A DNA stretch of 64,000 bases, from positions 9,613,375 through 9,677,374 of the forward strand of contig CAIIXF020000005.1 of the NCBI GenBank assembly GCA_903813345.2. The letters are read 5' to 3'. This stretch comes from Owenia fusiformis. Its lineage: Eukaryota > Annelida > Polychaeta > Sabellida > Oweniidae. The position numbers and the translations under genes were made by a program. Under the pieces are notes generated by a model that worked only from the letters and a program-made list of their open reading frames with translations, was not told the DNA's origin and ran no database searches. Position 1 is the first letter of the stretch; each line of letters starts with the position of its first letter. This document shows, one piece after another, positions 1 to 62,141 of this stretch.

Positions 1-19
1 ATTTCAATGAACAATATAG

Positions 20-126
20 GTGCAACACCTGCTATAAACTTGATACGATGCTGTATGGATCAGAAACAGAGTTTGCTGTTTGTGGAGAAGATGGCAATTG
101 GAACAGACCGGTACCAACCTGCCAAA
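20..126 (+). CDS. CCP C-type module, second half (exon 1 of window)
   Basis: Exon entering in phase 2 after ATATAG and leaving in phase 1 before GTATGT. It encodes the C2-to-C4 half of a sushi module (CNTCYKLDT ... GNWNRPVPTCQ). The first half must lie upstream of the window. It is nearly identical to the second half-exons at 5132-5238 and 9849-9955, so it is the end of a previous copy of the 5-kb tandem unit. Confidence 0.88.
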
Positions 127-3100
127 GTATGTTGTCTGCTTCATGCACATTATTCAAATGTATAACACTAAACTTATCATGTACGCGATGATATGATTTC
201 TTATGTGTGACATTTGGAGCGATTATTTAAGACAAGTCTAATATTCTAGTTTTGATGTGCATGTCCATGCCGCCACCGGAGTTTGGGGGAAGAAATCCAC
301 CCGATGGAAACAACAACTGTAATGATGATCCTGTCACTTTCTATTGTGATGCCGGTTATGGCGAAGAAGGACCAGGGGTGAGCAATATTAGCTGCATCCA
401 AGTGGAAGATGGAGTGGCAGACTGGGATAATGAACCTATGACATGTGGACGTTAGTTCGACTTTTTTAGAATTTAGGTCAAATCTACTCAAAGATTTCCC
501 CGTTTAACTAATTGGTGTCATAGAACATCACTATTCATTTAATTCATTATAATCGTCAAAGTTACATATTTTCTAGTACTTTGGCTGAGATCAATTATAA
601 TCTTTCTTGTCCAACATGGCGAATCTACATATATATTAAGCTAATCTTATAATTATATATTATGGACATACACACCATTGCTTCTTAAATTATTTTCAGC
701 ACGGTGTAGTGAGCGAATGCCTCCATTACATGGATCTGAACATGAAGCTTCTAGCGATGATCCGGTTAATAACCAATATAAACCAGGCCAAAAGGTTACA
801 TATGAATGTGATATATGCTACAGAATAAAAGCAAATGAGCTTGGTGAAATGGACAATGATACACTATGCACAGAATCTGGTTGGGATGCTGATGTTCCTA
901 ATTGTGAACGTGAGTGAAGAACATGTACCACAGATATATAATGCCGTCTATTAAATATGACACAACGGGTTCTGCCTGATGAAATATGATGGGCAGGGTT
1001 GATGTGAAATTCAGAAGTACAAATAAAAACTATGAAAACAATATAATTTGCCTAATATATTCATTTAGAAGGTTTTTCATAACACAATTATTCCTAACGT
1101 ATAGTGTTTGCTCATAAAAATAATATATATATTATCTGTTTCACAACAAAATTGTAAAATGTTTGATGTTATTTGAACAGTGATGCAATGCGAGAGCCCG
1201 CTTATGGGAGAGGGAGCCATGTTGATAGGGGACAACAACAGCTGTGGACAAACCCTTAGCTTTGAATGCAAGCCTGGCTACATTCAATCTGATGGAGAAC
1301 AAAGCATTACATGCCAATCCGAGGGCACCACAGTCTCATGGAGTGGCGTTCCAATGACCTGCCGGCGTAAGTAATTCTTTTACCACGTAACAAATGCTAC
1401 TAAGAGACAAATATGGAATCACGATTGTTCATTTTACAGCTGAATTTTATACTTGTAGTGCTGGAGTGTTTAGAAATGATGCCCGACAAACCACTTAACG
1501 GAGATATTGACAATACACCAGGTGCCACTGATCCTAAACCATATACGCCAGGTACATATTCTTCTTAAAGGTATATTATTCCTTGTTTATAAGTTCCCCA
1601 TTCACACCCCTCTCTGGTTACTTAATTATGTAATGACCCTCGATAGCAAGTCGCTACTAGTCTCAGCTGTAGTGGTTAGCCCTTATGGCTCATATAACGA
1701 ATATTCTTTTGTGCAGGTGACCGAATCAGCTTCATTTGCGATACATGCTATCAGATTGGACTGAATGAGAATGAAGAACGAGATGCAGATATTGTTTGTG
1801 GTATCAATGAACTCTGGGATGGTTCCATGCCAGTTTGTGAATGTAAATATGTTTAGACTCATCCATGAAATTATGTAATTGAATTTCTCTGGGCCTTATT
1901 TCTAAGTATGAAGCTTCTTATTTCTCATTATGTTAGTTGCCAAGCTAACCTGGTTAGCAATATGTTTATAATTGTCTTAGCACCATGGTGGTGTGTTTAA
2001 AGCTAAGGCATCAACATCAACAGTCAACACGAATAACATCATCATATTTTTGTGCTTTAGTGATGCAGTGTGTGTATCCTATGCTCGGAGAAGGAGTCGA
2101 AGTAATTGGTGGCAGTAATGACTGTGGAGCTTCGATTAGTTTCGGGTGTAAAGAAGGGTATATTAAAGCAGGTGGAAACGATGAAATGATGTGTCTTTCG
2201 GAGGGTACAACTTTACAGTGGAATGGTAGTCCCCTGACTTGCAAAAGTAAGTAAAACTCTGTATAACCCTATATTCCAGATTCTTGACTGCACAATGTTA
2301 TGCATGATAAACTGAATTGGACCATGTAAAACATAAAACAACTGTGTCTACCCTGTGATTAGCACAAGTTTTTGCTCGACATACAATAAAAACATTTAGA
2401 GCACAACATATTGAAAATCCTTTTACAACACTTGTTTCTTGGAATTTTCAGAAAAATGCCCATATCGAATGCCACCAGAAAATGGCACAATAGACCCAAG
2501 TAGTGACGATCCGATTGATTCAGAATACATACCTGGGGCTGTTGTACGCTTCAGGTAAAGTCAGATTTTTTAGTTTTCAACAGAAAATCACAAATATCCA
2601 ATGTACGCACCTTTTTTTATAAACAAATAAAACTTTAGTAACCGAAATGCCATGTAGTTCTGATTCATTTGTGAAGGACATACAGCTAAAACCATTACGA
2701 TAATCTGCAGTTCATACACTATAAATATATACGTCTCAATATCAATATCGTCTATATGACCGTCAACTTGATTTTGCATGTAAATTATGTTACAGATGTA
2801 ACCAATGCTTTACCATCGGTTCTGATGAATCGGGTCTTATGTCAGACACTGCCGTTTGCTTGAATGGTGATTGGAGTGATCCAGTTCCAACTTGTGAACG
2901 TAAGTAAAGGCGAAATATACAAGATGTACACGTATAACAATACAATGATAACACAAAATCAAACAAATGAAAACTGTTGCGTATGGAAAAATAACTTAAA
3001 TAACATACATCTTATTATACTGTAGTAGCAATCGACAAATTTCAAAGTAGCCATGTGTGATCTGCAATAAATGAGCAATTTTACTGCGACTATAGGTATG

Positions 3101-6100
3101 AGATGTGTACCAATATTTGCACCAGCCAATGGTGGCCGATCACCAGAAGCAGGAAACAACCTTTGCAATGATCCAACTATTCATATTAGTTGTGATGAAG
3201 GCTATGGAGAAGAAGGGTCTGGTATCGACCAAATACAATGTGTTGATATTGATGGCGATGCTGATTGGAATGGCGAACCATTAAGCTGTGGACGTATGTT
3301 ACATTTTAGGAAATTTATTATTCAGTGAATAGTTATGCTAAACATATTATGACATGCTGTTGTATGGAGATATTTGTGTTTTAGCAAGGTGTAATAAACG
3401 CATGGGGCCTGATAATGGTGCGATCGATGAAGCTAATAGCGATCAACCAGATGAAGAAAACCAATACAGCCCAGGTGATACAGTGAGATTTGTTTGTGAC
3501 AACTGCTTTGAAATAAAGCCAAATACAGACGGAATTCAAGACGACGATACAATGTGCACAACATCTGGTTGGGATGGACAAGTTCCAAGATGTAAACGTA
3601 AGGCCAAATTTGAATTCAATGTAATGAAAAACTTTCAGAAAAATCTGCAAGCTTTCCTATGTGGAGATTATTTGATGGATGGATACGTTAAAATAATGAT
3701 GTTGAAATAATAAGCAATTTGGAATTATGATTGTGATTGGTGTCAACAGTGCACATTACAAAACCACAACAAACAAATTGTAAAACCACAAACCAGTTAT
3801 GACTGCATCGATTTCATTCTGTATACCATGGGGAGACGTATCTCCTCTTTTCAATGAACCACAGTTGGCAAGGGACTAGGTTTTAGACATTTCAAAATCC
3901 AGGGCAGGGGTCAGGTGGTATTGGAAGAAGATGTGGCAGATGTGACATAAACATTTCAGTGTTAGTAGTCATACTAATGGTAAATCACATCTCAGTCCTT
4001 CACATGACAATCATTTCTTTGCTCACAAGGATGGGTTTAGCTCTCCATGTCCATGTCCATATTTTTCCAATGTCTAAATGTTGATCCCTAGCCGACTCTG
4101 GTCCACTGTGCAAATGGAATGATTGTTCAGCCATAACCACATGTTGATAAATTACATATCGGTGAAAAGAGGAAAACGTGGCTTTAAGGAACATTGAATG
4201 ATATCGATGCAGCCATCATGGGTTTTGTGTTTTATTTGTGTAGTTTTTATATGCATTCTATTCTACAAAATGTAGTGGGATATAATGAGACAAAATATAT
4301 GCATTTTAAATGAAGGACTAACATGCGACGCGCCTGAACTAAATGAAGGGGTCGAGCGAATAGGGATTAATAATAATTGTGGAACAACTGCCAGTTTTAC
4401 GTGTAAGGAAGGCTATGTCCCAGCTGATGGTACCCTTACGTGTGTGGATGATGGTTCTGGGTCTCCCGTCTGGAGTGGCACCCCATTGACTTGCAAAAGT
4501 AAGATACAGTAATACAAGCTAGCGAGACTAAAAAAAGCATTAACGAACATGCAGTTGTAGTCAAACGAAAACGCAATTTAATAATATCCAATTAGGCAAC
4601 AACATTGTCAAAATAGCACCATAAGTCGATACATCTGCTTGATCATTTGTTATCATTAATGCAAGATAGTAATATGCAACATCAAATCACCATCACTCAT
4701 GTTATTTACGTCACAACAGTATATTATCAAGAATATTATTTTACTTTCATTTATTTAATAGAGAAATGTCCTTTCCGTATGCCAACGACGAATGGTACAA
4801 TAGATCAAGAGAGAAGTGCTAACCCAGATCCAAATGATAACAAATATAATCCAGGAGATGTTGTGTATTATAGGTACGTATCGCCTCCTTTGTCGTGTTC
4901 GCTTTTTTTGATCGATTGAGTGAATCTCTTCTTATCTCGGATGATTTGCCTAAAAATATAAAAGAATATTTGTTAGACATCCCCGGAACTTTTCTTCCCA
5001 TTTGGTTATAACACCCTTGATTAATAACATGATAGAACTAAACTTCAACCATGAGTACAATGTACGATGGCATTTCATTGATATGTACTCTCATTTTATT
5101 ACATCTAGATCTGTTATTTATGTATATATAGGTGCAACACTTGTTATAAACTTGATACGATGCTGTATGGATCAGAAACAGAGTTTGCTGTTTGTGGTGA
5201 AGATGGCAATTGGAACAGACCAGTACCAACCTGCCAAAGTATGTAGTTAAACTCCATGTACATAATTCTTATACATTACACTGAAATTGTACATAGATAT
5301 ATGATCTGTTTGACATATGGAGAGACATTATAAGACACTTGATTTTGTAGTTTTGACCTGCATGTTCATGCCACCGCCGGAGTTTGGAGGAAGAAATCCA
5401 CCCAATGGAAACAACAAGTGCAATGACGATCCCGTCACTTTCTATTGCAACGCTGATTATGGCGAAGAAGGACCAGGAGTAAATAGTATAAGCTGCATCC
5501 AAGTGGAAGAGGGAGTGGCAGACTGGGATAATGAACCTATGACATGTGGACGTACGTATCACATTTGTTAAGAATCTAGGTATTTTCAAATGAAGACAAG
5601 GTCTACTTAAAGATTTTCCATTTAAAATTATATTTCTGTCCAATATTTTGACTGGGATCAGTTATAATATATTTAGAACATTTGTTTAATTGAATGAATA
5701 CGGAGATATAGATTTTGATGACGTTGCATACCAAATCAACTAGCATGAAGTGTAAACGCTAGAATTATTATTATTCATAAGTGGCAATGCAGTCGTCTCC
5801 TTCTGGCTGGGACCAGATTTTGCCTATTTTCCTGGAAATTCCTAAAAGCGATCAACGTGCATTTGTGCTGAAATTGATATCAGTGCATAGATTAAAACGG
5901 TATCACTTTATATCATATGATTTTCACGTAACTAGGCATGATAAACCACATTTCAGTCAGTCACCACACATAATAAAGAATAAAATAAATAAATACATGA
6001 CCTTTGAATTCTGACTACCGCCATCATTCCAAATTTGATACAAGGCATTCGTGGTTCAAACCATGCACACTTTTTTGAGTCCCGGGCTTAAATGCCTGCT

Positions 6101-9100
6101 TGTATACTTATCATATCATATCAATTATATATCGTACAATGCCAACTATCTCGAAACTACTTTGTAGCACGGTGTAGTGAGCGAATGCCTCCATTACATG
6201 GATCTGAACATGAAGCTTCTAGCGATGATCCGGTTAATAACCTGTATAAACCAGGCCAAAAGGTCACATATGAATGTGATATATGCTACAGAATAAAAGC
6301 AAATGAACTCGGTGAAATCGACAATGATACACTATGCACAGAATCTGGTTGGGATACTGATGTTCCTAGTTGTGAATGTGAGTATAGAAAATGTAGATAA
6401 TGATATCAATAAACGTTTTGGGTTTGGCCTGGTATAATACAATGGACAAAGTTGATGTAAGAAACGAAGATCAATTACAAATAAAAGCTATGAAAACAAT
6501 ATGAACTTATTAATTTATTCATTTACATCTTTTTTCCATAACATGAGTATTCGGATCGTATCGTATTTGTTCAAGAATAAAACATATATTTTTCACCAAA
6601 TGTAATATATTTGTTGTTATTTCAACAGTGATGCAATGCGAGAGCCCTCTTATGGGAGAAGGAGTCCTTATGGTAGGAGACGACTACAGCTGTGGACAAA
6701 CCATTAGCTTTGAATGCAAGCCTGGTTACACTCAATCTGGTGGAGAACAAAGCATAGCATGTCAATCCCAGGGCACGACAACCGCATGGAGTGGCGTTGC
6801 AATGACCTGCCGGCGTAAGTAATTCTTTAACGACGTACAAATGCAACTAAGAAAGCAAATATCGAATCAATGCAACTAAGAAAGCAAATATCGAATCATT
6901 ATTGTTAATTGTACAGGTGAATTTTACTTGTAGTGTTAGAGTGCTTGGAAATGATGCCTAGCAAACCCCTCAATGGGGACATTGACAACACAACAGGTGC
7001 AACTGATCCTAAACCATATACACCAGGTACAATTTTTCACGTATGGTTCACATCTACATCTTTATATAATGTGTATATATATATACAGGGTGGGCCATGT
7101 AGATGGACACTGTTTCATTACTTGTTTTGTATGTACACCCCTCACTCTGGTTGTTTGATTTTGTGATCGAAGAAAAGATCTTAAGATAACTCATTAAATA
7201 TTAACCATTTCAAAACTAGAAATACATGCCATTAACAAACATTCATTTGTTAAGGTGACCAAATCAGTTTCATTTGTGACACGTGCTATCAGATTGGACT
7301 GAATGAGAATGAAGAACGTGATGCAGATATTGTTTGTGGTATCAATGAACTCTGGGATGGTTCCATGCCAGTTTGTGAATGTAAATATGTTAAACTGATG
7401 TTTGTACTTTGTACTAATCTATATAATTCAATTTCTCTCGGTCTCTTCTTTTTTAATTTCTTTTTATTACATTTATAGCCTGGCTTAACTAAGTTACCAA
7501 TATATTTATAATTGTCTTTGCACCGTTGTGGTGTGATCAAAGCTTAAGTATCAACATCAGCACCAACATCATCATCATAATAATTTCCGGTGTTTTAGTG
7601 ATGCAATGTATGTATCCGATGCTTGGAGAAGGAGTCGAGGTTATTGGTGGCACCAATGACTGTGGAGCTTCGATTAGTTTTGGGTGTAAAGAAGGGTATA
7701 TTAAAGCAGGTGGAAACGATGAAATGATGTGTCTTTCCAATGGTACAACTTCACAGTGGAATGGTAGTCCACTGACTTGCAAAAGTAAGCAAATCAATAT
7801 GAATCTGTTCCTTGGCTGTTTCTTTGTGATTAGTTAAAGTTCGTATGATTCTACCATCTATTTTTGTAACATATTCCATAACCTCTATTGCATAGCATTT
7901 TTCTTTGAATTTTTAGAAAAATGTCCATATCGTATGCCACCAGAAAATGGGTCAATAGACCCAAGTAGTGACGATCCAATTGAGTCAGAATATATACCCG
8001 GGGATATTGTACGCTTCAGGTAAACACAAATCTACAAGTTTTAAACAGATAATCCCAAATATCTACTATGTGCGTACCTATTCTGGATTACGAAGAAAAT
8101 TTAAAGTTACCAAAATGACAACCGTGAAGTTCTGCTTCATATGTACAACACATTCAGATAATAATTCAATCTTTAGTTCCTATAGTGTATACATTTCTTT
8201 GAGTTGCCCATCTATTTTTGTGTTAATTATTTAATAGATGTAACGAATGCTTTACCATCGGTTCTGATGAATCAGGGCTATTGCCGAACACTGCTGTTTG
8301 CTTGGACGATGGGGAATGGAGTGCTTTGGTGCCAAATTGTGAACGTATGTAAAGACGAATTTCATAACAATAGTCAATACTATGACAATACAACACAACA
8401 CAAAACAAATGACTAAAAGCATCATTGTGTCTGGAAAAACAGATATTTTAAAGTGGAGTCAATATCAATGTACAAGTACACTTTTAATAATTTAGGTATG
8501 AGATGCGTGCCCATTTTTGCACCAGCCAATGGTGGACGATCACCCGAAACAGGAAACAACCTTTGCAATGATCCACCTATTCATATTAGTTGTGATGAAG
8601 GCTATGGAGAAGAAGGGTCTGGTATCGACCAAATACAATGTGTAGATATTGATGGTGATGCTGAATGGAATGGCGAACCGCTAAGTTGTGGACGTATGTT
8701 ACATTTTATGAGAGTTATACTTCAATGAATACTTACGATTAACATATTATGACATGCTATTGAATGGAGATATATATGTTTTAGCAAGGTGTAATAAACG
8801 CATGGGGCCTGATAACGGTGCGATCGATGAAGCCAATAGCGACCAACCAGATGAAGAAAACCAATACAGCCCAGGTGATACCGTGAGGTTCGTTTGTGAC
8901 AATTGCTTTGAAATAAAGCCAAATACAGATGGAATCCAAGACGATGACACAATGTGCACAACATCTGGTTGGGATGGACAAGTTCCAAGATGTAAACGTA
9001 AGACCAGAATTGAAGTAAATATGTTATAAAAAACGGTTCAAAAATAATATGATGAGAAAAGTATGTGTTATTAATCAAGATGGAGTTAAAATACCAAATA

Positions 9101-12100
9101 ATTAGAAATTATGACTTTGCATGTGATATATGATGACACAAAATTATTATATTTTACATGAAGGACTAACATGCGACGCGCCTGAACTAAATGAAGGGGT
9201 CGAACGAATAGGGATTAATAATAATTGTGGGACAACTGCCAGTTTTACGTGTACGGAAGGCTATGTCCCAGCTAATGGTACCCTCATGTGTGTGGATAAT
9301 GGTTCAGGGTCTCCCGTCTGGAGTGGCACCCCATTGACTTGCAAAAGTGAGTCATAATACTTTAACGAACATGAAGATGTAATCAAACGAAAATTTAATT
9401 TAATGATATCCGTTTAGACCAAAATGCATTATCAAAATACAGTCTGAATAAAATTATGAAAAAAGCACAATAGGTCGATGCATCTACTTGATTATTTACT
9501 TTATGATACAACATCAGCTCAACATCACTGACGTTCTCTATTGATAAACAATATTATTTTACTTTAATTTGTTAAATAGAAAAATGTCCTTTCCGGATGC
9601 CACCGGCAAATGGTGCAATAGATCAAGAGAGAAGTGCAAACCCAGATCCGGATGATAACAAGTACAATCCAGGCGATAGTGTGTATTATAGGTATTTATC
9701 GTTTATACAGTGCTAATTTTTTCAGAGCGAATGGAGGAATCCCAACATATTTTTCTTGGCCTGGATAATGTAAAACAATTTTCGTCTTCATATAGAACAT
9801 TTCTTTCACATTTTGCTATTACAATGTATTTCAATGAACGACATATAGGTGCAACACCTGCTATCAACTTGATACGATGCTGTATGGATCAGAAACAGAA
9901 TTTGCTGTTTGTGGAGAAGATGGCAATTGGAACAGACCGGTACCAACCTGCCAAAGTATGTTGTTTAGCTTCATGAACATGTACATTAAGTATTACACTA
10001 AACTTATCATGTAAGCGCTCATATGATTTTTTTTGTTTTATGCAACATCTGGAGAGGCTTTATAAGACAATTTATATTGTAGTTTTGACGTGCATGTCCA
10101 TGCCACCGCCGGAGTTTGGGGGAAGAAACCCAATCGATGGAAACAACAATTGCAATGATGATCCCGTTACCCTCTATTGCAACGCTGATTATGGCGAAGA
10201 AGGACCAGGAGTAAACAGTATAAGCTGCATCCAAGTGGAAGATGGAGTGGCAGACTGGGATAATGAACCTCTGACATGTGGACGTAAGTTTGAAACTTCA
10301 AGAATTGAGGTATTTTCAAATTGAGACCATATCCACTCAAAGATTTCCCCGTTTAACTAATTCTTGCCAATGATCATCACTACTATTCTAATTTATCATA
10401 TTTTTCAAGTATTTTGACTGAGATTATATTATAAACACACATATCATATCGACACTTCTTTCCAGCACGGTGTAGAGAGCGAATGCCGCCTTTACATGGA
10501 TCTGAACATGCGGCTTCTAGCGATGATCCGGTTAATAACCAGTATAAACCAGGCCAAAAGGTTACATATGAATGTGATCTATGCTATAGAATAAAAGCGA
10601 ATGAACTTGGTGAAATGGACAATGATACACTATGCACAGAGTCCGGTTGGGATGGTGATGTTCCTAATTGTGAATGTGAGTGTAGAAAATGCTATCAATT
10701 TGATAAGATACGTGGGGTTCGCCGAATATAAAACGAAGGCAAAAGTGGTGTATGAATTGAGATCAAGTACAAATAAAAACTATGAAAACAATATAAACTG
10801 ATTAATATATTCATTTGGATCTTTTTTCCATAACACAAGTACCCCTTACGTATCGTGTTTATTCATAAACATTTCTGTTCCACAACAAAATTGTAAAATG
10901 TTTAATATTATTTCAACAGTGATGCAATGCGAGAGCCCTCTTATGGGAGAGGGGGTCCTTATGGTAGGAGACGACAGTAGCTGTGGACAAACCATTAGCT
11001 TCCAATGCAAAACCGGCTACATTCAATCTGGTGGAGAACAAAGCATTACATGCCAATCTGAGGGCACCACAGCCTCATGGAGTGGCGTTCCAATGACTTG
11101 CCGGCGTAAGTAATTCTTTTACCACGTTACAAATGCAACTAAGAAACAAATATGGAATCATGATTGTTCATTTTACCGCTGAATTTTACTTGTAGTATTG
11201 GAGTGTTTAGAAATGATACCCAACAAACCACTCAATGGAGATATCGACACCTCGCCAGGAGCAACTGATCCTAAACCATATACCCCAGGTAATATATTTC
11301 ACACGTTATTCCTAACCGCAATAAATGCAATGTGATCAAATGTGATAGATACAATGTGATCTTTATTCATTTTTTGTTTCCCTTGGTTTTATATAAAATA
11401 AACAATTTATATTACGTATTTCATGTTTTTGCCGCCCTTGTATTCAACTTAAGAATGATTCCCTTACACTCGTAGTTCACTAATATGTGATCAACGATAA
11501 CAGCTTAAAATATATAGAAAATCATCAAATATTTCAAACATCCATTTGTGCAGGTAACCGAGTCAGCTTCATTTGCGATACATGCTATCAGATTGGACTG
11601 AATGAGAATGAAGAACGTGATGCAGATATTGTTTGTGGTATCAATGAACTCTGGGATGGTTCCATGCCAGTTTGTGAATGTAAATATGTTTAACTCATAT
11701 ATATGCAATTATTTCAAGTTGGATCTTAAATGGAAACCTATAAATAGTGTTATAAGGAATACTATTGCATGCAGGTGATATGCAAAACTTTGTAAAACCC
11801 TTGCTGAAGTTTCCTTTCAAAGGGTTTCCTTGCCTAAATGTATTTTGGATGATGTAATGCACTCGTGCCTCCCTAGACTTTTAATTTGGGCTGCCAACAT
11901 ACATGGTTTAAGTCACATTGAGTCCTAAGCTTATAAGTAATTTACTTATTTAGAATACATCCATTGCATTACAGTGGTCACGTGTTCTCCTGAGCCACAA
12001 GCTCCGATGAATGGCGGAGTAGTAGACCCGTCAACAACATGCGGTCAAACAACCACGTACACATGTGACATTTGCTACAGACATCAGGGGTCTGTCACAA

Positions 12101-15100
12101 GAACATGTCAATCAAACGGAAATTGGTCACCAATAAATGAGCCTACTTGTGAACGTAAGTACGAGTGGACCTTTAGTAGAGAGATTTCGCAACTCACTTA
12201 TAGCATGTTTATTATTCTTACGTATAGACGACGATTTATAAGAACGCCACACTTATGGACGTAAAGAACTGCGTAATAAATGGTGACGTTATCAAACGAT
12301 TCATAAGTTATACGTTATATACGTAAATAATAAAAATGCTATAAGTGAGTTGCGAAATGCCTCTAGTGTGAGGCTAATCATACGGTCAGATTGACAGGTC
12401 TCCACTGAGAACTTTGAACTGGAACATATATTAAAACAAATGATATAGAATTCGAGAATTAACCATAAGAAGTCAGCTAAGCTAAACAGGTGTTATCATT
12501 TAATCTTAAGATCACTTAATATTATTACAGTTCAACAATGTGCAGAACTAACCGCTCCAGCTAATGGGATGATAGTTTCCCAAAATACTGACTGTGGAGG
12601 TTCTGTGGTATTTAGTTGTGACTTTGGATACGAGCTCAAAGGAAGTGAATCCAGAGAATGTAAAGACAATGGAGAAAATGTTGAATGGACTGGCACAGAA
12701 ACGTCATGTGAAGGTAAAACAGTATTATACAATATTCATATCAAAATCGGCATTTAAATGAAAATGCATATCCCAGTTAACAAGAACTTCTTATTCATTG
12801 TTACTTCCAACTTTCTGATTTTGAACATTTCATTGCCAACGGAGGTTGACATTTTTAAAAGAACTTAAAGTGTTTTCAATTTTGGAACTGTTTGATTCTT
12901 TTATGATTATGGTTCCTGAATGATGAAGGATGGGAGTCGGACACTGAATAGAAACCATAATACCATATTTCAAAATATGGACAGGTGAACAGACAGATTT
13001 ACTGACTGGTGGATGGAGGGTTTCTCTCTATCACAACCGAACCTTGTTGGGATGAAATACAAAGCTTTATATTGTACAGATGTACTACTTACTACACATA
13101 GACGTACAAGTATGATGTGTTCAATAATACTATGATAAATTATCATAGCAAGAATTAAAATGTGTCATTTATACAGTCGTTGTGTGTCCCTTCCCGATGC
13201 TACCTCCACCACCAAATGGCGGATTCGATGATCCGCACACAGATGAGCCTCCTTACGAACCGGGAGACGTGATAACAATCAAATGCGACCCTTGCTATGA
13301 AATTGACAGGGTGGATGACAACGGTCAGAAAGATCCAGACATGTGTTGTCAGCTTGGTGGATTCTGGGACAACGCCACATTTCCTAATTGTCAACGTAAG
13401 ACTACTCTCATTTTACCTCTTGAACACCAGTGAAATCATTTTTATATTGTTCTATACCACAGACTTTGCCATATTACTATCATTGCAACCCATATGCAAT
13501 GGATGTATCATGTTCTATTGGATATACCATTTTCTATCCAGAGAAAATATGCACGCCATCTCCTAGCAACCCTGTCAATGGCGACGTGAGTTCAACTGAA
13601 GGCCTCTGCGGAGATGATGTTACATATACCTGCGATTGGTGCTACAGGATATCTGGGGGAAGCACAAGACAATGTACTGACGATTTTGGATGGGTACCAC
13701 TAGCAGAACCCGTATGTGAAGGTAGATGTATTTACAATCAGTGTATCTAATAATGTGGCAATAGTTTAAAAGCACTACAAAGGATATGTTGATAAATATA
13801 TTATATTCACAAATATCCTGCTATGCTATTATTTGTTAGAGGCAGGCTTGTAATTTGTCCATTTGAAGAAAGTTGGCGTGAAGAAATCATCAAAATACTC
13901 ATATTGATGGAAGACCACGCCTCCTGTAGATTCTTAATCTAGTCTTTATTCATTTCCAAAATCTAGCTATGTTTTCTTTGCCATAATTTTAGTTTTGAAA
14001 TGCGACAAACTAATGCCTCCTCAGAACGGAAGGATTATAAAGGATGGTACAAACTGTAAATCCACTGTGGAATTCGAATGTGAAGATGGTTTTGAGTTAT
14101 CTGGAAATGAAGTACTAACATGTATCGATAATGGTGGATCCTCTGGAGTGTGGGATGGTGCCGTCCCTACATGTGAAGGTAAAATCATCAGATAATAATA
14201 TCTATTTAATATACATCCTCAAGTACCAAAATGTGTTCGACAGGTTAACAGGTTGACTTGGCCATATTATAAGCCATGTTATTAGCCATGTCAAATAAAT
14301 GCCTTTTGTTAGATAAATTGTTTTCACCATTCCTTCTCAATGTCCACTAGGCCTAGATCGTAAGCTTGCACCCTGGAGGTCATATTTTCTAAGCTTCTCT
14401 TTGTCTGCTCAGTTGTTAAAGTAACATGTTAACTTCTTTATTTAAGCAATTGAATGCCCAGAACCAATGCCATTTGCACCGGTTAATGGCTCAAGAGACG
14501 CAAACCGAACTGATAGTCCGCCATTTAATATGGGAGAAATTATCACATACCGCTGTGATACATGTTACCAAATAAAATTGAATTCTTTCAACATTCGAGA
14601 TGATGATATTCTTTGTCAATCAGATGGAACGTGGGATTCTAATCCACCCGAATGTGAAAGTAAGTAGCATAAGAAACCCACTTCCAGGTTCAATTATTGA
14701 AAAATATTTTTCAGGGGTTTCTGGTTATATTACTTTTAAAAACTAAAAAATAAATGTGAACCCCTTAACAAGTGACAAATAAAAATAAAAGATCCACATG
14801 ATCTAACAATATGTTTAAACCTGTTTTATTCGTTTATGCAGATGGTTGCTCTTTAAATGATAAAATGTCTTGTGTGACATGTGCTTATTCCAAAGTGTAT
14901 CTGTTTTAAAGGGAAAATGTGTGATCCAGTAGAAGCTCCGGAAAACGGTTTTATCATTGATGACACTAACACTTGCAATAAAGTTGCTAAGTATGGGTGT
15001 AACATGTGCTACAAGGTCAGTGGTACAAATCCAAGACTTTGTGCAGATAATGGATGGGCCACACAAGCACCACAATGTCAAAGTAAGAACCATAAAATCA

Positions 15101-33100: not shown

Positions 33101-36100
33101 TTGCTATATAGTGAATTTATGAACCGAGGGTAGTCCTCAGACTTTATTGTGTGAAGCGAGGGTAGACCTCACTGTATATGCTTTATGAGCCAAGGGTATT
33201 CCTCATGATTTGCTCTTTGAACCGAGGGTAGTCCTCAATCTGTATGTTTTATGAACCGAGGGTAGTCCTCATGCTATGATTAATGACCCGAGGGTAGTCC
33301 TCATGTCTCATGTGCTAGTAACTGTCTTATCTTTATAAAAGTTGACAGTGAAAGCCTGTATTGATTAATGTGATAGAACTGCTCCGGAGCCACTCAAGTT
33401 GAATATTGAGAAAAAGAACAAGTTTTGAAATTGACGTTTTTCCGTGCATTTTTTTGAGTGAGGCAGATAGATATAACACTGTTGTGAGCAATTGTTAGCC
33501 TGATCGCTCTATTTGATTCGTATTGTTCTTTGAGAGGAGTTGGCTGAAGAGCAGTTGATAGTTATACTGAGTTATATAACTAAATTTGGAACTGTAGAAT
33601 TGGCACAGTTTAAGAGTGCATTGAAGTGTAAATTCTTTTGCAAACGTGTCTTAATTGGTTTAACCAAGGTAGCATAATTCGTACGCAAAAGTGACATTTT
33701 GCTCCTGAGTTTGTAGTAACAAAAAGAGCAAAGTAGTATAATTCCTCATCGAAGGCAACTTAATTGCTCATTTTGTGTGCTTATTGATAATTGAAAGTCA
33801 GATTTGTGCATGTAAAGGGCACTATGGAGTCGAGTAAAGACTCAGATGATTTAATAGATCTGACAAAGTGCGGTACAAGTGCTCAGTCGAGCCAAGAGCC
33901 CACTGTATATTTCAAGAGGGGTTATGCTGCTATGAGCACACCCAAGACTGATTCTAGCCTTGAAATGAAGGCAAAATCCACTGGATATTGGTCTCATGTG
34001 TCTGACACTGGTTTGAGTTTTATACAAGGTACACAGAAAAGAGAGGACTGCAAACTGGCTCCTCGCTCTTCCACTGTTGTGCCAACCTCAGAGACAGACA
34101 GAACCAGTGCCATTAGTGACCAAATTAGTCATCTTTGGAGCAACATTGACTTAATTGGCAATACAGTGGATATCATGAAATCTAAGATGGGCTCCATGAA
34201 ATCAGATTTGATACAAATTGTATCTAACATGAGCTTAATTCTGAAATCTGAAGTTACACAGGCAGTTTCCTCATTGGAACAGAGTTTGTCTGCTCACAAA
34301 GCCACGATGGAAAAAGAAATTTCTCTTTGTAAGCGTGAGACACAGGAGTTGATTAATGAAAATCGCTCCTTGATAAATGAACTTGAGAAAGTCAGGTTCA
34401 GAACTCCTCAAGATGTTGTTAAAGGAGGAGATGCATGTGTTGAGAGGGAGGAGTTAGCTCCATTATTAGAGCAGACGAAAAGTCCTCCTCATAAGAAGTC
34501 ACGTGCTCTTAAAAGACAGAGAGCAATTAATCACAGTTCACCAGAGATGGGAGGTGATCCTCCGTCTTTACCTGGTATTGTTTCAGACCTGGATGAACAG
34601 GCTAGTGAAAAGAGCCAGATACCCGAAATGAAGGTGTCAAATACAGAGATGGCTCGAAATGTAACAGATATAAAATTTAGCAAAGGAGCCATGAATACTG
34701 ATCATATAAATGAGGCTCCAAACAAATTCCTCTCAGTAAGCAGGGAAGATTCACATCATCCCAGTGCTCCTCAGTATGGCGGGAATAAGAGGAATTTACT
34801 TAGTTGTTCTCCCTCACGAGATATTGTGTTAGAGCACGTACCGAATTGTGATCTGTTGAATAGTTCTCCACATAGAGAAAACATTTCACAGACACAGCAG
34901 ACAGTAAATGTGACAGGTACTACTTCACTGTCACCTGATGTTGATATGACCCCTGTATTACAGGTTGTAAGAGAAGTTATTGGATCATTGAAAAATGATA
35001 ACCAATCTAGTAACAAATCTGTGAAAATAAAACCTGATAAGTATGACGGTACAAGTCCATGGCAAGACTATAAAAGGCATTTTGAAGTGTGTGCTCGCTC
35101 AAATAACTGGAGCATAAATGATAGAAATGATTTTCTGGCATCCAGTTTGAAGGGGCAGGCCTTGGAGATTTTGAATGAATTGCAACCTGGCTATACATAT
35201 GAGCAATTAGTGAGTGCACTTGATAAACGATTTGGGCCTGAAGGCAAGGCCAAATTGTATGAAGCTCAGTTTCATAGTAGACAGCAGAGGCCAAAGGAGC
35301 CACTGCAAAAACTAGGCCAAGACATTCGACGCTTGGCAGCTCTGGCATTTCCTGAACTGTCCAGAGAAGCTCAAGACAGATTTGCTCGCACTCGCTTTCA
35401 ACAAGCATTGCTTGATGATCAGATTCGAGATGTGGTTAATACGGGAGAGCCTGATACACTAGATGTAGCTATTTCTATTGCTCTCAAACAAGAGTCTTAC
35501 CTTGAATCTGAACGAATTCGTAAGGGTCAAAAACCTACGTTATTATCAGATAACATAGGTGCAGTTGATATTGAGAGCAGTGCTAACGATGGTAATCTCG
35601 TCAGTAATGATGCACTGTACAAGCTATTTGACAGGCTGGAGGCTCTGTTAACTGTTCTGGTAAAGAAAAGGTCCTCAAGAAAGCCTAGGTCTGAGATAAC
35701 CTGTTATAATTGTGACAAATTAGGGCATTACAGTAATGAGTGTACCTTTCCCAAGACTTCACAGTCAAGGGATAGAGATAAGAAAACTACTGTTGCTCCT
35801 ATTAGTTTTGAGAATGTAGATAGTTCAAATCAAGAGAAGAGAATAATTACTACTGCTGAGATATGTGGCTACCCTATGAATTTTCTAGTAGACACAGGGG
35901 CAGTCAGAACTATGATTGACATTGCTGATTACCAGAAAATACCCTCAGAAAATCAGCCTGAATTATGTAAAGTGAATAAAATATTTAAACAGGCGGATGG
36001 CTCCCATCTTAAGATATTTGGAGCAATAGAATGCTCTGTTGATCTCTGTGGTACTACTTGTGAGGCCCAGATAATTGTTGCTCAGCTCAGTGGGTTCAAC

Positions 36101-39100
36101 ATTTTGGGTTGTGACATCTTGTCTAAACAAGGAGTCAATATTAATTACCACAATAGAGAATTGTTACTGAATTCCTCCAATGGAAATGTAAGTGGGGAAA
36201 TTTATGAGATATCAGTAGATGAGCCAAATGTGAGGAGTCACAAAGCTCCCACTCTGCTTAAGAGTCTTAATGACAAGAAATCCAGCTGTGGATTGAAAAC
36301 CTCCTCCGGGAAGCTAAACGGTGAACATAATGAGGTCCCGCAATGGACACTAAAAACTATAAGTGAGGCTCAACGTGAAGATCCTCACATCAGTCCGATA
36401 TGGCATGCCTTGAACCACTCAAGACACAGACCACATTGGAAAGAAATCAGTTGTAAGTCTGAGATAACGAAAACTTACTGGACCCAATGGAATAGGTTAA
36501 CCATTGAGAATGGTGTCTTATGTCGTTCTTGGGAGAATGATGAAGGAACTTCATGTACCCTTCAAATCATCACTCCAAGGCCTATGAAGGAGACTGTGTT
36601 AAAGTACTCCCACACCAATGTCTGCTCAGGACATTTTGGAGTAAACAAGACTTACCAGAAAACTAGAGCCAGATTTTATTGGCATAGGCAACATGCTGAT
36701 GCTCGTGCATTTTGTAGAGCCTGTAGTACTTGTGCTGCAAGGAAAAATCCTCAGCGACAGCACAATTCTAATGAGCATGTTGCAAGTAAATTATATGAAG
36801 CTGGAGATGCTGTATGGTTTAAGAATAACCAAAGTATGAAAGACAGCACTCATAAGTCCAAGAGTCGATGGACTGGGCCATGGAAAGTGGTCCATGTAAC
36901 ATCTGATTTGACATGTAAAATTGTTAATCCCAAAGGAGGTAAACCCAAGGTCATTCATGTTGACCAGTTGAGACGATATGAGGGTGAGCTCCCTTCCTCC
37001 TGGGAAATGTGTAAACTTGAAACCGAAGTATTAGCTCATGAGAAGCTCCCGGAGTTTCCTTTATTAGAGCTTTTCGGCAGAACAGAGGAGCAAATTACTG
37101 TGCCACCTTCCTTGATTAAAAAGGAAGAAGTAACAAAAGAGACAAAGTTGGACACTATTGTACCTCCTTCCACATCTGGAGGAGAAATTGATAAATGTTT
37201 GTCCAACTGTAGTAATGATTGTCCTCCGATAAATAGATTGTTAAATGCTCCTAAGTCTCATGGAGAAACATTGCATTTGCAAAGAACTCCGAGCTATGTA
37301 AATAATGTTTGTTCCATCACTGATAATAAACCAATGTGTGATGATGACTCCGGTTCAATTTTGAACAGGAGGATTTTTTCCAGGGGATCCCAAAGACCCA
37401 ACAACAAGATGAGATGTTGGCGACCATATACTCCTAGGTGAAGTCGTCATTACAAGCCACCATGACAAGAGACTTTTATACCAGTGTCCAGAGAACAATG
37501 AACAGGGACTGATATACCAGTTTAACTAGTTTATTTATAACAGTTATGGGATTATCAGAGTACACTGTTTTCAAGAACCAATAACGGATTATGGACTTAC
37601 AAGTGACCTGAGTAGGAGTAAAGCAGTTTATGAGTTCATATCCCATGCAGCAGATGGAGGACACTTGACTGTGCAACATTGTTTAGAGACACTTAATAAA
37701 TTATAGGTTAACTATTTCATTTTATCTCATGGTTTTATAAGATGTTCTCTAAACTGAGTTATTTTAGAAAAATGCTTTCCGCTTCTTCTATTTTTCTGTG
37801 TATGTACGAGGGCGTACATGTTTCTAAGTTGGGGGGTGTGTAGCGGGAGCGCATTTTTCTTATTTATTTTCAAGTTTTATTTTCATGCTTTTCTGATTAA
37901 GATCAAATTATGTTTTATATATGGTTAAAAAGAACAGTCTTTTGCCAGCATTGTAGCTTTAATGTTATGCAAAAATGTCTCCTAGTTTTTGAGTAAGATT
38001 GGTTTAAATAACTAGTGTAAACGTGTGAGTTTATTTAATTCTCGGCCGCCTGGCACACATGATTTCAGTTCTTATTTACTCATGTTCTTTCTCATTAAAT
38101 ATAGAGAAGAGTATTTGTCCATAAATTATAATAATTATTTCTTAAATTAAGGGTGAATTGAGCTTTCAAACGGTGTATTAAACTTTGAATTTGATCTCAT
38201 ACTTTAGGAGATATCGTAATTTGAAAACATGCAATTTCAGTGGAGATTTATGTTTCCTACGGCATTTTGCCGTCACTTTCAAAAACTTTCTCATGTAGCA
38301 AATTGATTGACAGCTCGCTGTAGGTTTATTAAGTCTTTGATGTGACAGATATTTTGACATTGTAGCAAGCATTCAGATTCGTTGTCATAGTAGCATTTCC
38401 TTATATGGAAAGAGATGTTCCGAAATCTTAGCGTTCTCACGATCGTTAAGGTAATGTTCAGTCTAGTTTTGAATCGTTGAAGAGTAGGGAGCTGCGATCG
38501 CATTTTGGAATTATAACAAAATTGTATCATTTGGATTTATAACAGATTCGTAACAGATTGTGGATTTATATTGCTGTATTGAGTAACGTCAGATATTTGT
38601 GCTATTGATGGTGTTATATTATGGATTTATAACGAACTTGAACTGGATATATTTTGCGTTACACGGAGATGCGTTGTCATACTGAAAGTCGTTCAGTGCT
38701 GTTGTGAACATGTATTCTGCATACGGTAATTATAATAAAGTCTTGTTATTTGTTCTTTAAATTCACTATTCTGTTAGATCTGTAAAGTGAAGTCAGAGTG
38801 AGAGAATCTAGTTTACATAACCGTTTTAATTCCACTTTGCAATCCAAGAGTGATAAGGGAAATAAGTTCAAATTCATATCCTTTCCTTCATTCAATCTTT
38901 TACATTCCACCTGCCATTTGTTATTTCTAATCCTTTATTCCCCGTGGATCTATCACTTTAACAGTTCACACATTCATTATTTTCTTATCTTTTATTCTCA
39001 GTATTTCTGTCAACTTGTCAATTATTTCAATTTCATTCACAACCATAAAGATTGGCCATATCTGTAACAAATTGCTCTTACCAAAACTGCTCCTTACGTT

Positions 39101-42100
39101 TTGCTCCAGAGCTGATTTCACTTGTGTGGAGCAAAGAGTTATTCCAAAGAGGCAAGGTAGTGTAAGACTATTGCTATGTGACTTAATTGGTATAACCAAG
39201 GTAGTAGTAATTCATATGCAATAGTTACTTAATTGCTCTCAAAGCTCCTGTTTTGCTTACAAGCTTGTTTAGCTACTGATTTTGGAGCATTGCACTTTGC
39301 TCTGGAGCCCGTTGAGTTGCTCCCACTTGTTCAGCTATTTATTCGGAGTCTTGCATTTTCCTCCGGAGCCTATTGAAACTTTATGCTTTGTTTAGAGACT
39401 CCCTGATTATTGAGAGCATTACATTTTGCTCCGGAGCCCATTGAGTTGCTCCTGCTTTATATTGAGTCGTTGATAAGGAGCATTTTGACGGCTCCATTTT
39501 GTGTATGAAGTTTTGCCAAGCTATTTGAGTATTGTATTTTCCTCCCGAGCCGAAATTGATTGGAGCTAAATGTACCGATTGCTCAATTCATTTTGCTCAT
39601 GAGCCATCACCAAAGGAGCTAGGGTGTATAAATAGATATTGGCCAGAATCTTCATCATAATTAATTTCATTTACACATCCCTCTAAATTGACTCATTCAT
39701 TTCACATTTATTAAAGTTATTCATTTTGTATTTCCCTTGTCATTCTGTTATTTTATGCATGTTATATCAGTGGCACGACATAATAAAAATCAACACAACA
39801 AAATCCTTTCACCAACAGACGTTCCCCGCCGGCTCTCATACCACGTGAGAGTTTTTAGTGACATCGGGTTTCCGCTCGGCCCAGACGCCACGTTCCGTCA
39901 CAATAAATTTCTAATTTTGACCATACCAAACTTCGCCGCTTGTTAAATTCAAAAACATAAAATTTCCAAGTCCAACTCAATAAGATTCAAAATAAAAGAG
40001 AACACACTGTATTGTTCATTTAATGAACTCATTTTATAGTTCTTACGTGTGATGCGATGGGTCCTCTTGCAAATGGTTTGATCGTCGGAGGAACAGAATG
40101 TGGATCATATATAGAACTGTCTTGTGATCCTGGTTATAAGTTGATTGGAGAAAGCATCATTTACTGTACAGACAACGGGGGCACAAATGGAGAATGGGAT
40201 GGATCTCTTCCGTTCTGTCAAAGTAGGACACATCAATGTGACATATCAATGTGACTTAATAATACCATTAGTTAGCGTTCATGACGTCCATTAACCTGTA
40301 ACAATTTGAATCACAGATTACAGTTTACTTTAATGTCTTTCTATTTTAGAAATTGAATGTCCAGAACCAATGCCAATCGCACCAGAAAATGGGTCGAGAA
40401 AGACTGACGAAACTGATTTGGCTCCATACGAACCCGGGGATATGATAACGTACCAATGTGATACATGTTATCAGATAGAGATGAATCAATTAAATATAAG
40501 AGACGACGATATTTTATGCCAATCTAATGGAACTTGGGACAGTCACGTACCCGCTTGTGAAAGTGAGTAAAAACAATACCACATTAATTTAGGGCTGGGA
40601 TTAAATTTGCATCAATGGATAGAGTAAAAGGTTTAACTAATAAATGTTCTAGTTTGTAGAATTGAGATTCAACTAGTGCTAACGTAAGGTTCTTATCGTT
40701 TCTAAAATAACACGGTATTATAGATCAATATACGTTTGGTTTAAGAAACAAATACTGATCAGATGAAGATTTTAAGAAAATCACTCCTTTCTCTTGACAA
40801 GAAAGCTTAACAATTGTAATAAGTATTAAGAAGACTCCAATTCGGAACATCAAAACATGATTCATAGAGCTTCTTCAAGACCAAAAACCACATGACTAGA
40901 CTCTGAAACGGCGCCACATTTGAAAAACTAGGGCAACTAGCATGTCTGATCGGTTTGACCTCTTACATTAACAGTGCATTGCTCGTTCATTTTAAGGAAA
41001 GATGTGTGATATGCCAACACCTCCAAACAATGGACTCCTGATCGATAGTGCTTATTATTGTGGTGAAGAGACAATTTATGGTTGTGACGAGTGCTACAAA
41101 CTCGTTGGAGAAAACCCAAGACATTGCGCCGATAGCGGATGGCTAACACAAGCACCACAGTGCCAGGGTAGGTTCAAATAAAATATTTAGCAGCATCTGC
41201 TCATTGATGAATCATTCAATCCCGTTAGGCTTTTTATCATTTATTCTATCAAAATGAAATAACATTCCATTTCCAGTGTTTTGAAAGTGACGGCAAATAA
41301 ATAAATTAAAAAAATTGCTGTTTTTTATTATACTTTAATGCGTTAAATTCCGTATAAATTCTTAAGAATAATATTCAGTCATAAATAATCCAATAGTAAC
41401 CATTAAAATACACAAGATACCAACTAATCTGGATTCAAGTTTTGCTTGAACTTGTAATCCAAGAACAATATCAAACATTGCCAATAACATGATAACCAAC
41501 ATCTTTAAACTTATTTGCATATCCCCTTGATCATTTTACACAATATATCTATAAAATCATTGAGAACAATAAAATATGTCAGTGGATAATAATCAGTAAT
41601 TTGATAATGAAATCATATATTTCTAGTGATGCATTGTCTTGGTCTGACTGCACCAGTGAATGGCTTCATATCATCTAATGAAACAGAATGCGGTGTAGCT
41701 GAAGTTCAGTTCTCATGCGAAGAGGGATTTAACTTGATCGGTGTAAGCGCATTGTCGTGTGTTGCAAACGGAAATGGATCCGCTGAATGGAATGGTGAAG
41801 TCCCGGTGTGCCAGGGTAAGTTAAACGTAAAAAAGTTGAGATCACATATTTTTCAGCAGCAATTTACTGCTAATTTACGGTTATGCTAATTAAATGAGGG
41901 ACAGATGCAACACAATTTAATTCAACATAAACAAAAAGACTGATCATCAAATTTGAATTATATAATTTTGTGAGATACACATCGTTTTTAAGTAGCATAT
42001 TGATAAAACATTTTGTTTGAAGTTTCCTGCGATGCTCCTATGAATTCTCCGCCAACCAATGGGAGTTTAGTGGAGCAGTCTAACCCAGGACCACCCTACC

Positions 42101-45100
42101 CTACTGGCACAGTACTCGTGTATAGGTGCGATGAATGTTTCCGGTTGCCATACGATTCATTTGATGAGCAGTTGAGCCGATTAACCTGTCTTGCAGATGG
42201 ATCATGGAGTAACGATGTGCCCACGTGCGAACGTATGTATAAATTTACGGAAATCGGTAATGTTTTCACTAATAAAGTTTAATACACTCGTAGAATGGCT
42301 CACGCAAACTTGGATTTTTATTTAGGAAAGCCATGTCATCCACTCGATCCTCCTCCAAATGGATTGATTGTCAGCGCAGATAATTTCTGTGGTGGGATGA
42401 CTGTATTTGCACCACAAGAAGGCTTTCAACTACTTGGGCCAAGTGCACTGATGTGCTTACCAGATGGTACTTACGACGATGAACCACCAACTTTCCCGAT
42501 GGGTACGGTATTTTAATACTGTTAACACGACAGTGACTTTTTCAGATCAATGTTTTGGTACACATGTCAGAGTAGTCACAAATCTCATGTCATTATTATG
42601 CTTAATTCAGGCTTAAAATAGTGCATTCTCTCACACATTTGATTTTTATCAGCGTTCGGAGTATGTCGAGCAAGTGGTGATCCTCATTACTGGACGTTTG
42701 ACGGGATTCCAATACATTTCCAATGCGCTTGTAAATACCTCCTGGTCGGGTCACTACCTAATCTAGGAAATCCATTCTGGCAAATCTATGTACAAAATGT
42801 ACATTGGAATGGACAAAATATCGGATCTTGGACTCGTGATGTGGAAATCGTTTATAACGGTGATGTCATTGAACTCTTACAAGGAGCACTTGCAACTCCG
42901 GGAGACATTGAAAACTCATTTGAGGGACCCACTGAAGGAGGGTTTAACGTCCAGGTTTGTGTTTCATCATTTTTTAATAAAAAAGAAATGTATCACGTTT
43001 AAACAACGGATTCCATTTTTCTGGATCACCTATGTACTGCTCTATTATGTCCACACAACTACAAGAAACAAAGATGTGAACGGTCAAACATCAAGAAAAT
43101 TGGAAATCTGGAAAGCATGTCTAAAATGTCTTAAGTTATTAATACTCGTTCCTAGCCTTTGAACAAAGTGGTAAATACACCAGAGAATGATTACTTATCC
43201 GCTTCCAGCACAAGTCAGTATAGCAAAGGATAAACAACACGATTAATTCATACGTTTCGATAAAAGAAAATGAAATTGTTGTAATTGTATCATACTGGTT
43301 TGATGATATATCCCGTAGCATTCATTTCAGGTGAATGGTGAAAACGTCACTCCTGGTACAGAAATTCAAAATGGAGATATTAAGATTTCTATGAGCGGTT
43401 TGTTTGTACTCGTCGAAATCCTGCCTCTCAAATTGACCGTTAAGTGGGATGGTTCCTCACGAGTTATTGTTATTCTAAGTGGTATGTGGTTCTGTTACAC
43501 TTTGACGATAACATGTCTAGCCGTTGCATTGTAATTGAGATTTTCTCATTGTGTACTTTTCAAGTTTTCATCCATTTAAGGGTCAACTAACAGGATATCT
43601 TGCTTGATCTCGGAGATCTCTAGTAGATCTCTAATACATAGTTGTCGCTCCTAATATAACTCTGTCCCTTCAGAAACATGGAAAAATAAAGTGGAGGGAA
43701 TATGCCAGAACTTCAACGGAAATCCATCAGATGACATGCGGCTAAGAAATGGAATGGATGTAACTGGTACAAACAACCCAGGAACGCAAATTGGAAACAG
43801 TTACCAAGTCAACAGCTTGTCAGAGTGAGTTGCCCCGATGCTCTAAATGATTTCATTTTGAACAACTGTAGCTCAAATCCAAATAATGAAATTATGATAC
43901 AAGACTTGTAAATCTCCCAAGCCTACTGCTAAAGTATTTCAAATGACATTCTAGGTGCGCATGCTCACCGCAAATGGCAGATCTGCCGACATGTGTTGAC
44001 TACGAGACTGTCAAGGAGAAATGTAGTATTCTCGGTGATTTAAATGGTGTCTTTGGACCATGTATAAGTGAACTTTCCGAAGCAGCTCGGCAGAATGTAA
44101 TCGAATCTTGTCAGGCAGACATGTGTGCGGATCAATCGAGGTATTGCGAAATTCTGGAGGATTTTGCAGCAAGTTGTGCAGTGACGTCAGGGCCTATTGT
44201 GGCATGGAGAAATGAAACAGAGTGTCGTGAGTCTAGCATTTTTAAAACTTCTTTTAGTTAAATAATTGAATACATTCTATTAAAACAATATGTTGTGATT
44301 ATTAATTAATCATATTAGTAAAGTATGGAGGTCTAGAATGCCAAAATTAGTGCACTCTCATTCTATGTCGTTGACATAAGTATAAAGATATTTTGGGACA
44401 GAGATGAGCATCAAATTCCAGTCATTTGTATTGATTTAAGATCTTCATGGCACACTAGAAAGCTCAGTATTGTGTGTAGTGTGTATATTTCTTCAACATA
44501 TCGAACCCCATTTTATTTTATTGAATCCATATACTGGCATATTTTAGCAACCCCCATGTGTCCATTTCCAAGTGAATACAATGAGATGGGATCAGCATGC
44601 CCGAACACATGTGTCGATCCAAATGCTGAAGACACATGCACAGACCCACCAGTGGAAGGCTGCTTTTGCCCTCCAAATTTCATTTTGTCAGGAACTCAGT
44701 GTGTTCCTGATCCATTTGGATGTGGCTGTGTAGATAGTAATGGATATTTTAGAACAGTAAGTTAGCTAAATCAATATTATACTTAAGTGACGAGCATTTT
44801 GCTAAAACTGCATACTAGTATATTCTTCTGAGCCTGGGCGATTAATGCCATGACATATTAAACAGAACAAAAAACAATACCCTGTATTTCTGACAAAAAT
44901 CATACATACTGATCTTTCTTACCATTTTAATACGTTGAAAGATATTTTTATTTCTCGATTCTACACCACTTATAAGTCAAGTTATGGACAATAATCATGA
45001 ATATCGTCAACGTAACAAAAACGAGGGACTAAATATGTGAATTGCGTCTTCGTTAATATACCAAACATAGAACCGCCTGCATATTCTCAAACTAGACCAT

Positions 45101-58987: not shown

Positions 58988-62141
<3,154 letters not shown>

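Follow-up and report, generated by a model that had tools for sequence, protein, structure and literature searches.

Paired extra cysteines at the junctions of very long CCP arrays in Owenia fusiformis point to disulfides between neighbouring modules

We analysed a stretch of 64,000 nucleotides from the annelid Owenia fusiformis (the window, C5:9613375-9677374 of a 498 Mb genome; coordinates are window-relative, negative values lying upstream of it), which very probably holds most of one gene encoding an extracellular protein of very large size, built from complement control protein (CCP, or sushi) modules. Besides the four canonical cysteines C1-C4, these modules carry an extra cysteine near position -8 of C2 (N-type), near +3 of C2 (C-type) or at both places (six-cysteine, S-type), and we consider it highly likely that the extra cysteines are the two halves of an inter-module disulfide, with one state per junction, stapled or open. 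Module i would contribute its +3 (or +4) cysteine, from the DE loop at its C-terminal end, and module i+1 its -8 (or -9) cysteine, from the BD loop at its N-terminal end; a junction with both cysteines would be stapled and one lacking both open, with C-type modules stapled on the C side only, N-type on the N side only and S-type on both sides. Arrays would then read as repeats of one C, any number of S and one N, and the covalent blocks so formed would comprise 2, 3 or 4 modules each in the window gene.

Modules were re-read by a profile hidden Markov model (HMM) together with splice sites, the exons being predictions made without transcripts. The CCP exons lie on the + strand, beginning upstream of the window and reaching 42228, one module or half-module each, mostly in phase 1-1 and starting 2, 5 or 8 bases ahead of C1. 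The first C module, at -7482 and after an odd six-cysteine module (X), places the array start 7.5 kb upstream of the window, where it was missed by an earlier account made from the letters of the window (the sequence-only reading). That account's counts of 28 N and 10 S modules are borne out: the 67 CCP modules with C4 inside the window are 29 C, 28 N and 10 S, 12 of the 29 C modules being split over two exons (one of those 12 begins upstream of the window). Across the gene, C1-C4 are present in all 85 assembled modules, an 86th (42334) is without C2 and C4, and the tryptophan is absent in two C modules (-7482, 17615); an S and a C module score 28.7 and 25.8 bits against Pfam PF00084, both above the cut-off of 20.7. 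Before C2 the extra cysteine stands at -8 in 37 of the 85 modules, at -9 in 11 and at -16 in one; after C2 it stands at +3 in 46 and at +4 in four.

The order of the classes is strict. Each of the 35 N modules in the set of 85 has C as the next module, extending what had been noted for the 28 in the window, and S never falls inside an N-C pair, as had also been claimed. In 200,000 shuffles of the 85 modules the maximum was 25 N-C neighbours and none (0 of 200,000) placed every N before C; near-identical repeats inflate this test, and after clustering at 60% identity the 52 clusters give 63 distinct junctions with no exception (38 with both cysteines, 25 with neither, 0 mixed). The gene comprises 36 blocks (26 CN, 6 CSN and 4 CSSN), 29 of them wholly or partly in the window. 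If junctions are stapled as proposed, the rule that every N is followed by C would say only that staples are gained or lost in pairs.

Two pairings fit this order equally well. The sequence-only reading gave S modules an additional, third disulfide within the module, from -8 to +3, and let each N share a bond with the following C, so that N|C would be the rigid joint; the alternative joins +3 of module i with -8 of module i+1. With N, C and S as the sole module types, both allow only N-C, C-N, C-S, S-N and S-S neighbours and therefore give the same strings inside arrays, so the distinction has to come from array ends and from non-conforming neighbours. What speaks for N-C dyads, that every N with a next module in the window gene precedes C and that S never stands inside, is thus reproduced by the shifted pairing.

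At the junctions themselves, all 50 modules of the window gene with a +3/+4 cysteine precede one with a -8 cysteine, and all 35 without +3 precede one without -8. When the genome was searched with one S module and one C module and the flanks were read, five further loci emerged in it (A, B with C, D, E and F; Table 1), whose 139 junctions comprise 95 with both cysteines, 44 with neither and 0 mixed. Pooled, the six loci hold 233 modules and 224 junctions; both cysteines are present at 145 junctions and both absent at 79, and no junction has one only. This count leaves out two X modules, which would be exceptions. With N-C dyads, 6 of 84 N modules in the six loci have no C next and 7 of 85 C modules no N before them, all at array ends or beside an X or plain module; with the shifted pairing no cysteine is left alone (0/145 and 0/144). 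All seven array starts that were read are C modules, preceded by a TSP1-like part, X, a plain module or non-CCP sequence; all six array ends that were read are N modules, followed by VWD, X or non-CCP sequence; and dyad pairing fails at every one of these 7 starts and 6 ends. An array that starts in C and ends in the N-like module at 42334 favours the shifted pairing. This terminal module has retained C1, the -8 cysteine and C3 and lost C2 and C4 (Pfam Sushi E 0.003, 18.4 bits, below the cut-off of 20.7), the next exon is VWD, not C, and its counterpart in paralogue A (L007) is intact; judged from its sequence, it would be the partner of the last C module at 42028.

Linker lengths, counted in residues from C4 to C1 using splice sites with acceptors picked by rule, follow the same division. 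The linker is 4 residues long at 50/50 pair-carrying junctions of the window gene, and 2, 3, 4, 5 or 8 residues long in 1, 18, 12, 1 and 3 of its 35 N|C junctions, a picture unchanged when the nearest acceptor sites are used instead; in the paralogues, 49 of 51 pair-carrying junctions have a linker of 4 versus 14 of 24 N|C junctions. Linkers fixed at pair junctions and variable at N|C are the opposite of what is expected if N-C were a welded pair. The earlier picture of rigid dyads joined by flexible S-S and dyad linkers would accordingly be turned round, the linkers being fixed where they were called flexible and variable where they were called rigid, and the unstapled N|C junctions would be the more flexible joints, or hinges. 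As background only, the part of PMC3289644 available to us describes a three-residue linker in factor H as rigid and a six-residue linker as flexible.

The positions of the extra cysteines can be located in factor H, whose CCP 11-12 sequence we placed on the solved chains 1haq_A (611-726) and 4b2s_A; twelve residues named in the available parts of PMC4068365 and PMC2806952 match the correct letters. By nuclear magnetic resonance, His651 of CCP11 contacts strand E of CCP10, and Pro661-Leu664 of CCP11 packs on Tyr710, Tyr711 and Gly712 of CCP12 (PMC4068365). On our placement His651 is the -8 position, Arg662, within Pro661-Leu664, is +3, and Tyr710-Gly712 of CCP12 are -9 to -7. In the 12-13 interface Thr724 and Ile726 of CCP12 (+5 and +7 in our placement) lie against His773 of CCP13, which is called the equivalent of His651, and the D-E loop normally contributes to the interface with the next module (PMC2806952). 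To the extent of these excerpts, -8 faces backwards and +3 forwards, and +3 and -8 share one interface across the junction. In factor H the two positions stand at opposite module ends, which argues against the third internal disulfide once proposed for S modules, and they should be further apart still across an N-C junction. The predicted structure of the S module at 20991 is a canonical CCP (mean predicted local distance difference test score, pLDDT, 92.6) with strand 25-30 between Cys22 (-8) and Cys33 (+3); it matches beta-2-glycoprotein I (7jik_A, Z 9.7, 1.3 Å over 57 residues) and also CD55, CrrY and factor H, the matches overall lying at 1.3-1.7 Å over 57 residues. Array ends, linkers and the factor H positions as excerpted led us to reject an internal S disulfide combined with N-C dyads, which we regard as very unlikely. 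A bond whose halves are shared by neighbours was the right kind of idea, with the wrong partners.

It is even less probable that the order is merely inherited, multi-module units having been duplicated in register with no bond across junctions. Near-identical blocks in the window and five near-identical S modules in locus F would suit such a history. The repeat units differ by locus, however (S alone in F and E, C-N in D, C-S-N in B), and the diverged loci keep the rule at 139/139 junctions, although lone losses would be expected if the cysteines were unpaired. Duplication in register likewise leaves aside why linker length tracks the cysteine pair and why terminal module 42334 retained its -8 cysteine after loss of a core disulfide. 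That the extra cysteines connect separate chains covalently into a network, as happens in other VWD/C8/TIL proteins, we consider the least probable reading: a C-terminal VWD-C8-TIL part is present by Pfam, and this type of part occurs in covalently multimerising proteins, but such links would require neither that both halves always lie on adjacent modules within one chain nor a fixed linker.

The C modules at -6060 and 19620, each directly after N, resemble S modules more than other C modules, as if an S-S junction had dropped both staple halves together. At L018 (C12:4356000-4364999) there are five near-identical S exons, most ~1.07 kb apart, and the stapled block there would have grown recently by single S modules. 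The longest putative stapled block, found in a paralogue, has 11 modules.

Several points weigh against junction staples as we read them. Both X modules (-8032; L005 paralogue A) have a cysteine at +5 and are followed by a C without -8, and setting X apart on account of a private sixth cysteine after C4 is special pleading until shown. Five N modules have their partner cysteine at -10, -14 or -16 rather than -8/-9, and the locus D array ends in S as read, with no N in the next 10 kb. Only 75 of the 139 paralogue junctions were measurable for linkers, and acceptor choice shifts three N|C linkers between 3 and 8 residues. All of this comes from one genome with predicted exons, block duplication makes many junctions non-independent, and 14 of the window gene's 36 C modules, like several N modules in locus B, had to be put together by hand from two exons each. 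We treat the order, the junction pairing, the ends, the linker lengths and the published factor H positions as established; the disulfides are deduced, not observed, and structure prediction covers one S module.

Automatic classing by HMM column agrees with the hand strings except for split or unspliced rows: row 11544 was classed S automatically from intron bases and is C after splicing, and hand classing was used for the N modules of locus B that are split, for the split C 21612/22057, for N 10483 of locus C and for N' 30555 of locus A. Along with the two X modules, the truncated 172-base S-exon copies in L012 were dropped before pooling, as were weak rows of locus E (2981, 7462, 12515, 23191), locus F (18448, 20433) and the window gene's upstream flank (-16815); the reading of loci B and C does not extend to the 14 kb separating them. 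In L012 itself (C5:9494000-9503999; locus C rows 17703-20455) a truncated six-cysteine exon recurs about 17 times at a spacing of 172 bases, which is not divisible by 3.

The control locus H (L004), a plain CCP array in one 2766-codon frame, is likewise long and shows no extra cysteine at -8 or +3 in 49 rows. Locus G (L019, C8:37686000-37695999), a five-cysteine CCP array, resembles the window array in having one extra cysteine per CCP, at -3 in 13 of 14 rows, but has no +3 partner and no alternation.

The complement regulators (factor H, CR1, CR2) share with the window array the module, the C1-C4 frame and the end-to-end arrangement, and in the factor H 10-13 papers, as far as excerpted, the positions of the extra cysteines are non-covalent interface positions. 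The regulators have no extra cysteine pair at -8/+3, and in them linker length and packing, rather than covalent staples, determine flexibility. Selectin consensus repeats, like S modules, have six cysteines, with two extra ones on the CCP fold, and the E-selectin repeat is among the fold matches. In selectins the extra pair probably lies elsewhere in the module and forms a bond inside it. The excerpted part of a selectin review (PMC7355470) does not describe the cysteines of the repeat, and spider factor B carries two extra cysteines according to the available part of PMC4714745. CCP modules are known already; in the open-licence PubMed Central literature searched we recognised no inter-CCP disulfide or six-cysteine CCP of this kind, nor did we recognise there a CCP-array family with a strict inter-module cysteine pair.

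The protein would run, in order, through a TSP1-like part, one X module, 86 CCP modules, a VWD-C8-TIL-EGF part and a SUEL-lectin-like part (Table 1). A Pfam search gave no match for the X exon (-8032) or the TSP1-like exon (-10612). The C module at 13185-13391 has a further cysteine beside C3 (DMCCQL); it is odd, of a seventh type, and no partner for it is evident. The intron that separates the last two modules of one C-S-N block holds a retroelement whose frame at 33791-37438 (1216 codons) matches a zinc knuckle, a retroviral-type protease, integrase H2C2 and the integrase C-terminal domain, with no reverse transcriptase match at E 0.001.

Table 1. Features of the window and its flanks, and the paralogous loci. 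Module blocks were placed by HMM and splice-site reading. LTR, long terminal repeat; LINE, long interspersed nuclear element.
Feature	Position	Strand or location	Basis or remark
TSP1-like exon	-10612	upstream of array	named by reading
Odd six-Cys exon X	-8032	upstream of array	named by reading and second copy in paralogue A
C-N block	1..446	+	C split, starts at -244 upstream of window
C-N block	705..1362	+	
C(split)-N block	1467..2242	+	
C(split)-N block	2457..3289	+	
C-N block	3390..4494	+	
C(split)-N block	4767..5547	+	
C-N block	6173..6810	+	
C(split)-N block	6942..7780	+	
C(split)-N block	7922..8689	+	
C-N block	8790..9342	+	
C(split)-N block	9585..10279	+	
C-N block	10471..11101	+	
C(split)-S-N block	11204..12709	+	S at 11983
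C-S-N block	13185..14174	+	S at 13550
C-S-N block	14455..15461	+	S at 14920
LINE-type reverse transcriptase-like open frame, end	15870..16625	-	inside intron; seen by reading
C-N' block	16732..17465	+	N' (17259) has extra Cys at -16
C-S-S-N block	17615..19427	+	S at 18003, 18542
C-N block	19620..20146	+	C closer in sequence to S modules
C-S-S-N block	20378..21438	+	S at 20728, 20991 (20991 is the folded module)
C(split)-N block	21585..22562	+	
C-N block	22704..23217	+	
C(split)-N block	23363..24222	+	
C-N block	24468..25022	+	
C(split)-N block	25759..26613	+	
C-N block	26897..27529	+	
C(split)-S-N block	27712..29961	+	S at 29409
C-S-N block	30150..40218	+	S at 30495, N at 40048; retroelement in last intron
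LTR retroelement	30734..39221	array intron	direct repeats 7105 bases apart, 300/300 identical where reported
C-S-N block	40358..41811	+	S at 41005
Last C module of array	42028..42228	+	
Terminal N-like CCP module	42326..42502	+	phase 1-1; C1 at 42334
VWD domain exon	42643..42999	+	directly after array; Pfam PF00094 E 9.4e-11
C8 and TIL domain exons	43947..44762	+	PF08742 E 1.3e-10, PF01826 E 1.4e-10
TILa and two EGF exons	45727..47437	+	Pfam
Tandem repeat read as SQINMCHGISQIRLCHSVSQMKFCHSLSY	47981..48698		probably intronic
SUEL-lectin-like exon	49829..50188	+	PF02140 E 1.2e-6, 29.2 bits, under cut-off 31.4
573-codon open frame ending in C2H2 zinc fingers	60420..62138		Pfam zf-C2H2; EGR-like by reading
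Locus A	C5:9549 kb		TSP1-CNCN-X-CSSN-CN-CSSN-CN-CN-CSN-CSN-CSN-CN-CN-CN-VWD
Locus B	C5:9440-9508 kb (with C)		15 blocks of CN or CSN, then C8/TIL/EGF-like exons
Locus C	C5:9440-9508 kb (with B)		TSP1-like-CN-CSSSN-CN-C, then SSN-CSN-CSN past repeat tract
Locus D	C5:29.6 Mb		TSP1-like-CSN-CN(x7)-CSN-CSN-CSSSS
Locus E	C11		plain-CS(x9)N-CN-CN-CSSSN
Locus F	C12		closed C-S-S-S-S-S-N set

The domains around the array suggest that the rod serves in a secreted matrix, mucus or adhesive protein, probably as a long segmented spacer within a secretion or matrix. By domain content only, the VWD-C8-TIL-EGF-lectin surroundings give no sign of C3b/C4b binding, cofactor or decay activity of the type found in regulators of complement activation (RCA).

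The case also illustrates how a correct pattern can hide a wrong partner, since the order is the same under both pairings and the choice between them falls to the array ends alone. What determines the angle between CCP modules, and their freedom to move, has long been asked of factor H and related proteins. If the junctions here are locked by disulfides, the array would be a natural experiment, setting stapled against open junctions within one chain, as well as pointing to two positions at which structural studies might lock a CCP junction in whatever protein carries it. Stapled junctions would be stiffer than open ones, and we lean towards the view that the loci form a whole gene family with a covalent junction code, in which any CCP-CCP junction may be locked by a disulfide from the DE loop of one module to the BD loop of its successor and the locked/open pattern itself is kept by selection as stiff segments of 2-11 modules separated by hinges. 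If true, such a code would offer a natural means of programming how stiff a modular rod is.

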